Below the pieces are notes generated by a model that was not told the DNA's origin, did not search any database, and worked only from the letters and a program-made list of their open reading frames with translations. From positions 1-37,456 of IMG/VR virus record IMGVR_UViG_3300043548_000155: DNA of 37,456 nucleotides. One strand, written 5' to 3'. The position numbers and the translations under genes are program-made. Source of the stretch: a virus. This document shows positions 16,673-19,695 of this stretch, piece after piece. Position 1 is the first letter of the stretch. Every line of letters starts with the position of its first letter.

Positions 16673-16978
16673 TGGAGCACTGAGAATACATGCTTACCGA
16701 GTAACACCTCAGACATTATTGTAATCCTTGCGAGACTACTTTCTTCTGACTTCCACTAAGCCTCTTCCGAGTATCCTAGTCTGTTACCAACATCGCCGTT
16801 TTAAGTCAGGCATTAGACTTGACATTGTATGCTACTCTACGCTTTATTACCCGTTGACCTTGCGAGCCATTCACAGTCGCTAAACCGTTACGAATCTTCT
16901 AGCATAAACAGATTTCACCTTGCGAGTTACGTCTGACTGTATTACCTTGCGGCTACAGTATTAGATGCCTTTCACATA

Positions 16979-17105
16979 CAACCGAGGCAGACTTTGCGTT
17001 TTTAATCGAATGGTTGGAATTGAACCAACTGCCGACTCCTCATAAATGGAGTTGCTCTACCAGATGAGCTACATGTCAACCTACTATGATGTGCTGCCTC
17101 AGTTG
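16979..17105 (-). ncRNA. tRNA-like domain embedded in the giant RNA
   Basis: Nucleotides 17079-17006 fold as a cloverleaf: D-arm GCTC-ATCTGGTA-GAGC, anticodon-like stem ACTCC/GGAGT with an 8-nt loop ATTTATGA, 5-nt variable loop, and T-arm GTTGG-TTCAATT-CCAAC. The acceptor (TTGACATG with CATTCGA) pairs only with a bulged C, and no CCA follows. The whole cloverleaf is enclosed by a 12-bp helix (CAACTGAGGCAG with CTGCCTCGGTTG). It is therefore built into the larger RNA rather than being a free tRNA. Confidence 0.72.
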
Positions 17106-17547
17106 CTACATAATCTTTTGGATTACATAATACAACACACCACGTACCTTTTGTCTCGCGGACTACTCAGTAGTACTTCACGACCTGTGTATCTAATCTA
17201 ACGAATAGACCCACTAGCCATTGATACTGCGTACACGCCCTTAGGAGCGACCCTTCGGACAATATACACTACCCTTTCTCATACCAATTCACAAGTTGGT
17301 TTTGTGTTGAGGTCAGCACCACCTGTTACTCTCTGTCTACTTGTCTTACCCTTGCGGGGACTTAAGCAGACATTCTTTCCAACACACTTGCTTCATTGTT
17401 ACAACCACCGGTCTTATCAGTGATCGCACCCTCACGGGTGTGAGCAGGCTTGCATAGATGAACCATTGCTGGTGCAGTCCTGTAGGCGGATTCTGCTTTG
17501 GGCCTATCACTAGGCTTATTCTAACGAGGCTATGCCCCCAATCTTTA

Positions 17548-19425: not shown

Positions 19426-19501
19426 TGGTAGCAGTAGTAGGACTCGAACCTACGATAAACACCGTATGAAGGTGCCGCATTAGCCGCTATGCTATACTGC
19501 C
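19426..19501 (-). tRNA. tRNA (CAT): elongator Met or Ile(k2C)
   Basis: Anticodon loop TTCATAC on stem GCACC/GGTGT, T-arm loop TTCGAGT, A73 and encoded CCA. It lacks initiator features. Met versus lysidine-modified Ile cannot be decided from sequence. Confidence 0.9.
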
Positions 19502-19507
19502 ATTAAT

Positions 19508-19612
19508 TGGTCTCGCAGGCTAGATTTTCACTAGCATGACTGTCCCCTGCCAACGCCGCGACAGTCTCCGCCGCCCATATCCTCGTAGATAGTTTCCCTA
19601 TCAGGCTGCGAG
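19508..19612 (-). ncRNA. tRNA-like RNA ending in CCA (105 nt)
   Basis: The 5' end CTCGCAG pairs with CTGCGAG (7 bp), followed by A and CCA exactly as in a tRNA. Before the 3' strand is a 5-bp stem with a 7-nt loop (GCTAG-TGAAAAT-CTAGC) in the T-arm position. Near the 5' end a GATAG-GGAAA-CTATC hairpin takes the D-arm place. The middle holds a 7-bp hairpin GACTGTC/GACAGTC with a 15-nt loop instead of an anticodon arm. It sits between tRNA genes and would be processed with them. No standard tRNA class has this layout. Confidence 0.75.
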
Positions 19613-19619
19613 ATATATC

Positions 19620-19695
19620 TGGTGAACCGTGTAGGGATCGAACCTACGACCTTCTGATTAAGAGTCAGATACTCTTCCAACTGAGTTAACGGTCC
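19620..19695 (-). tRNA. tRNA-Lys (CTT)
   Basis: Loop CTCTTAA on stem TCTGA/TCAGA, T-loop TTCGATC, A73, encoded CCA. Confidence 0.95.

Follow-up and report, generated by a model that had tools for sequence, protein, structure and literature searches.

A 105-nt tRNA-like RNA without an anticodon arm in a phage tRNA cluster, conserved in a second phage and laid out like T4 RNAC

The tRNA cluster of a 37-kb virus record (the whole stretch analysed, 37,456 nt, is called the window here) carries a 105-nt tRNA-like gene on the minus strand, from 19612 to 19508, which was identified by direct reading of the sequence. The gene has a tRNA-like layout without an anticodon arm, stands in an operon-like context and is conserved in a related yet distinct phage (L070:778-885, minus strand). 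We consider it probable that its product is a stable, non-decoding phage RNA, which would be cut out together with the tRNAs and act in trans, in the manner of RNAC of phage T4; its expression, processing and trans action are inferred. ARAGORN reported 34 tRNAs in the window, every one of them on the minus strand, as is the tRNA-like RNA. The gene is framed by tRNA-Lys(CUU) upstream (19620-19695, minus strand, 7-nt spacer) and tRNA-Met(CAU) downstream (19426-19501, minus strand, 6-nt spacer), both called by ARAGORN, and neither this program nor Rfam, including the tRNA model RF00005, reported anything at the 105-nt RNA itself. The window also encodes a GOLLD RNA (16677-17143, minus strand, 213.5 bits), whose interior contains a tRNA-like segment (17010-17074).

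Read on the minus strand, where nucleotide i of the RNA corresponds to window position 19613-i, the gene begins with CTCGCAG CCT GATAG GGAAA CTATC TACGAGGATATGGGCGGCGGA and continues with GACTGTC GCGGCGTTGGCAGGG GACAGTC AT GCTAG TGAAAAT CTAGC CTGCGAG A CCA. The two strands of the acceptor stem, CTCGCAG (19606-19612, invariant in the homologue) and CTGCGAG (19512-19518), form seven Watson-Crick pairs and are followed by A73 and the encoded CCA (19508-19511; GCCA in the aligned homologue). Directly abutting the acceptor is the T-position arm GCTAG-TGAAAAT-CTAGC (19519-19535), so that the two form a stack of 12 bp. The 7-bp acceptor, the NCCA end and the 5-bp T-arm with its 7-nt loop on the acceptor thus follow the tRNA pattern, just as the original prediction had described them. 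The D position is occupied by the hairpin GATAG-GGAAA-CTATC (19588-19602), which is invariant between the two members and has pair probabilities of about 0.87 and 1.0 in the two sequences; an alternative hairpin, UAUCU-ACGA-GGAUA, came out about 3 kcal/mol worse in both and was set aside. No anticodon arm is part of the proposed structure, and its place is taken by an unpaired, G-rich linker of 21 nt, TACGAGGATATGGGCGGCGGA (19567-19587), which contains the invariant GGATATGGG. The last element is the 7-bp hairpin GACTGTC-15 nt-GACAGTC (19538-19566), proposed earlier as the replacement of the anticodon arm. Its pairing and the lack of an anticodon arm were borne out, but the hairpin is misplaced in that proposal, because it lies 2 nt from the T-arm and hence at the variable-arm position of class II tRNAs. 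By eye, the GGA motifs are conserved in part only, and reading them as CsrA or Shine-Dalgarno sites was set aside.

The T-loop lacks TTC, in agreement with the original prediction, and reads TGAAAAT. In the RNA it starts with UGAAA, and UGAAAAU is compatible with the consensus UGNRA given in PMC2258182, although the canonical elbow bases are missing from both the T-loop and the D-loop. Despite the UGNRA-compatible loop, the T-arm reaches a pair probability of only about 0.4 when either sequence is folded freely, which leaves a tRNA-like elbow plausible rather than established. Folding z-scores against shuffles are modest, with -2.3 for the window RNA and -1.7 for the homologue. In first-order Markov shuffles of the window, searched on both strands, a descriptor made up of acceptor, T-arm and CCA occurred 0.03-0.07 times per window, a figure that does not yet demand the neat placement between two tRNAs.

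The homologue, 108 nt long, was found by an exact-pattern scan in IMGVR_UViG_3300003375_000098 (record G001), a fragment of a phage that has a 30-tRNA cluster of its own and several genes in common with the window phage. The match has a BLASTN E-value of 6e-29 and an identity of 84-85%, while the 100-nt flanks of the two RNAs are about 50% identical and not alignable. At about 84% identity, the tRNA-like RNA is far better conserved than the same-anticodon tRNAs of the two phages, whose best pairs, compared for 25 types, lie between 53 and 91% with a median of 69%; a single type, tRNA-Thr(UGU), exceeds it. Both members retain every one of the 24 proposed base pairs, as the original prediction demanded of a relative, with a compensatory change from C-G to U-A in the T-stem and a wobble change from G-C to G-U in the 7-bp hairpin; in slid controls, pairing was found in 25-38% of cells. 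A shuffle control of pair conservation gave 257/500, a test that has no power with two sequences, and with two members the structural support is thin. The D-position hairpin, GGATATGGG and CAGGGGAC, the latter flanking the 7-bp hairpin, are invariant, and the changes cluster in the apical loop of that hairpin, which has 15 nt in the window RNA and 18 nt in the homologue.

This degree of conservation bears on two readings that would deny the RNA a function of its own. The order of acceptor, D-position hairpin, variable-position arm, T-arm and CCA is that of a tRNA and could be inherited from a tRNA, for instance one of class II, whose anticodon arm has disappeared; decay, however, would be expected to produce the opposite of about 84% identity against a tRNA median of 69%, with all pairs kept, and we regard a degenerate pseudogene as very improbable. 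Somewhat less so, yet still improbable, is a cis element, which would serve as a structured spacer within the precursor of the tRNAs and steer or insulate the processing of its neighbours. The very short spacers on both sides and the location between two tRNAs would suit such a role, but the homologue has other neighbours, with tRNA-Arg upstream and a protein gene downstream, the remaining tRNAs manage without a spacer of this kind, and single-stranded parts are invariant.

The reading we prefer, a stable RNA acting in trans, divides the molecule into two halves. The RNA would be transcribed as part of the tRNA operon, cut by RNase P at C1 under the guidance of the acceptor/T-arm stack and the RCCA motif, and trimmed at its 3' end down to the encoded CCA. 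RCCA matters for RNase P and is contacted by the RNase P RNA (PMC12710915). Base 73 is A in the window RNA and G in the homologue, so that ACCA and GCCA both retain RCCA. At the sequence level, both RNase P requirements, the acceptor/T stack and RCCA, are present in the window RNA, and with the 12-bp stack, RCCA in both members and spacers of 6-7 nt to real tRNAs, the processing as a tRNA envisaged in the original prediction is very likely. The tRNA-like half would then be a tag for processing and protection, whereas the working part would be the non-tRNA half, consisting of the GGGAAAC hairpin, the GGAUAUGGG linker and the CAGGGGAC flank of the 7-bp hairpin, and may have its target, a protein or an RNA, in the infected cell and act on it in trans, the mode of action presumed for T4 RNAC. 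We favour a trans-acting RNA because the non-tRNA half is conserved beyond the needs of processing, and these three invariant elements would be the first to mutate.

The main rival to this reading, raised in the original prediction with EF-Tu among the possible partners, is a decoy, which would sequester an enzyme of the host or a defence protein acting on the acceptor end, the CCA or the elbow of tRNAs, and thereby shield the 34 tRNAs of the phage. An RNA that kept the acceptor, T-arm and CCA end and lost the anticodon would offer no target to an anticodon nuclease and could bind proteins that read the acceptor or the elbow, and many other unusual tRNAs occur in related phages. Yet a pure acceptor or elbow decoy has no need of the non-tRNA half, which is conserved as well as the tRNA half, and the UUC read by elbow-binding proteins is absent from the T-loop; we therefore rate a decoy as rather unlikely. 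The least probable of the alternatives, and a highly improbable one, is an amino-acid carrier, aminoacylated and used outside decoding. SerRS reads long variable arms and not anticodons, and the long arm at the variable position would, together with the CCA end, fit such a use; base 73, on the other hand, differs between the members (A/G), an acceptor end with C1-G72 is unusual for Ser, and no partner enzyme was found among the proteins scanned.

No third member came out of pattern scans that covered 2.9 million viral contigs as well as genome contigs, with matches checked for structure or by eye, nor out of a two-sequence covariance model (R1) run on 150 virus records. Two weak matches, with E-values of 0.05 and 0.6, were not accepted, the former after its sequence had been read; a model built from two sequences is weak and may have overlooked distant members. 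BLAST against INPHARED returned chance-level matches only, and no cultivated relative was near enough to name a host. Other candidates in related phages that ARAGORN had missed proved to be other kinds of odd tRNA.

The tRNA-like RNAs of these related phages deserve a description of their own. Among about 1,280 distinct tRNA-like matches, position 55 of the T-loop covaries with the D-loop: U55 goes with GG in 1247 of 1254 cases, and 25 of the 27 sequences with G55 have AG and lack GG, although the sequences are related and a Fisher p-value overstates the case. The G55 tRNAs often also have positions 54/58 changed from U/A to A/U, and many of them were missed by ARAGORN (for example L081:280-353, minus strand, L217:4075-4148, L098:18645-18718, and L214:6636-6709); judged by these sequences, the tRNA elbow seems to have been recoded in a coordinated way. 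Among the related phages, five share a tRNA-like family of 118-123 nt with normal acceptor, D-, and T-arms and two anticodon-like hairpins in the middle (L192:591-709, L194:130-247, L206:3818-3940, L210:9207-9327, and L214:7395-7514), for which ARAGORN made no call and Rfam listed no tRNA in the four loci scanned. The phage of the homologue encodes a second odd tRNA-like RNA of about 100 nt (L070:1372-1471, minus strand), in which D- and T-arm are present and an elongated middle replaces the normal anticodon arm. Finally, some tRNA-like genes apparently have no D-arm and carry a D-loop-like motif, AACTGGAT or similar, in the variable region (L035:12253-12333, L035:13964-14044, L056:8573-8652, L031:13064-13141, L183:7427-7505, and L180:7779-7858).

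Several known RNAs resemble the window RNA in part. With class II tRNAs (Ser/Leu/Tyr) it shares the acceptor, a D-position hairpin, a long arm at the variable position, the T-arm and CCA, but it lacks the anticodon arm, TTC and a canonical D-loop, and ARAGORN and the Rfam tRNA model are silent on it. The human mascRNA and menRNA, from MALAT1 and NEAT1, are likewise tRNA mimics without a usable anticodon and are processed by RNase P (PMC11693755); however, they are eukaryotic and of other origin, their CCA is added after the cut, and their elbow is built from D-loop guanosines and the T-loop. In tmRNA, too, the acceptor and T-arm are kept and the anticodon part is replaced, but the window RNA is far shorter and has no conserved tag reading frame. 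A tmRNA or short-frame reading was rejected, as position 3-70 is C3-G70 instead of the Ala pair G3-U70 and the ATG frame in the linker ends after seven codons in the homologue; ARAGORN made no tmRNA call, and no Rfam tmRNA match overlapped the window RNA.

The closest parallels come from the tRNA cluster of T4, which encodes RNAC (species 1 RNA, rnaC, NC_000866 70908-71046, 139 nt) and RNAD (species 2 RNA). The expression of RNAC as a small RNA was validated by Northern blot (PMC9697503), and the function of both RNAs was stated as unknown from 2010 to 2025 (PMC3014915, PMC9697503, PMC12685909). RNAD is a stable small RNA of 119 nt whose locus ends in CACCA at its 3' end, but its predicted fold does not have the acceptor/T-arm layout. 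For RNAC, an alignment of 11 sequences from T-even relatives (L345-L355, alignment A3) and a covariance model were prepared. The alignment supports an acceptor of 7 bp, in which ten of the 11 sequences have two U-U mismatches, a stacked T-arm, a 7-bp hairpin directly 5' of it and a large D-position domain, which forms a 6-bp loop-loop pseudoknot with hairpin 2 (UUGACG/CGUCAA) that is paired in 11/11 and has two pairs changed on both sides. An acceptor and T-arm with an adjacent 5' hairpin and no anticodon arm had therefore been described in a phage RNA before, contrary to the original prediction, which knew of none with this layout.

RNAC and the window RNA are both genes of phage tRNA clusters that adjoin tRNAs, are similar in size, and have in common the 7-bp acceptor, the 5-bp stacked T-arm, the hairpin that directly precedes the T-arm and the absence of an anticodon arm, so that their layouts agree but for how large the D-position domain is. 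They differ in that RNAC has a mostly canonical T-loop (TTCGAAT), the large pseudoknotted D-position domain and a mostly UACA 3' end, whereas the D position of the window RNA holds a hairpin of 15 nt, for which inspection by eye showed no pseudoknot-type complementarity, and there is no detectable sequence homology between them. The RNAC model gave no match to the window RNA beyond a T-arm fragment, even with filters off, its top match in related phages was an ordinary tRNA-Ser, and R1 found no more than a generic T-arm/acceptor match in T4 RNAC. Homology through the common GGATATGG was also discarded, since in RNAC this stretch is part of a helix and covaries with the opposite strand, and the RNAC model misses the window RNA. 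As neither model recognises the other RNA, the likeness is one of layout, and membership in the RNAC family is not established by the sequences. It is possible, though we hold this only tentatively, that the window RNA represents a separate class of tRNA mimics, free of an anticodon, released by the tRNA machinery and equipped with a trans-acting module of their own, in which the layout of RNAC was reached independently; if so, this would point to a common target of phage tRNA-cluster RNAs. Because the layout of RNAC recurs without detectable homology in another phage group, the analogy suggests that tRNA mimics lacking an anticodon are of some use to phages that carry tRNA clusters, and it provides a second case in which to seek the job of RNAC.
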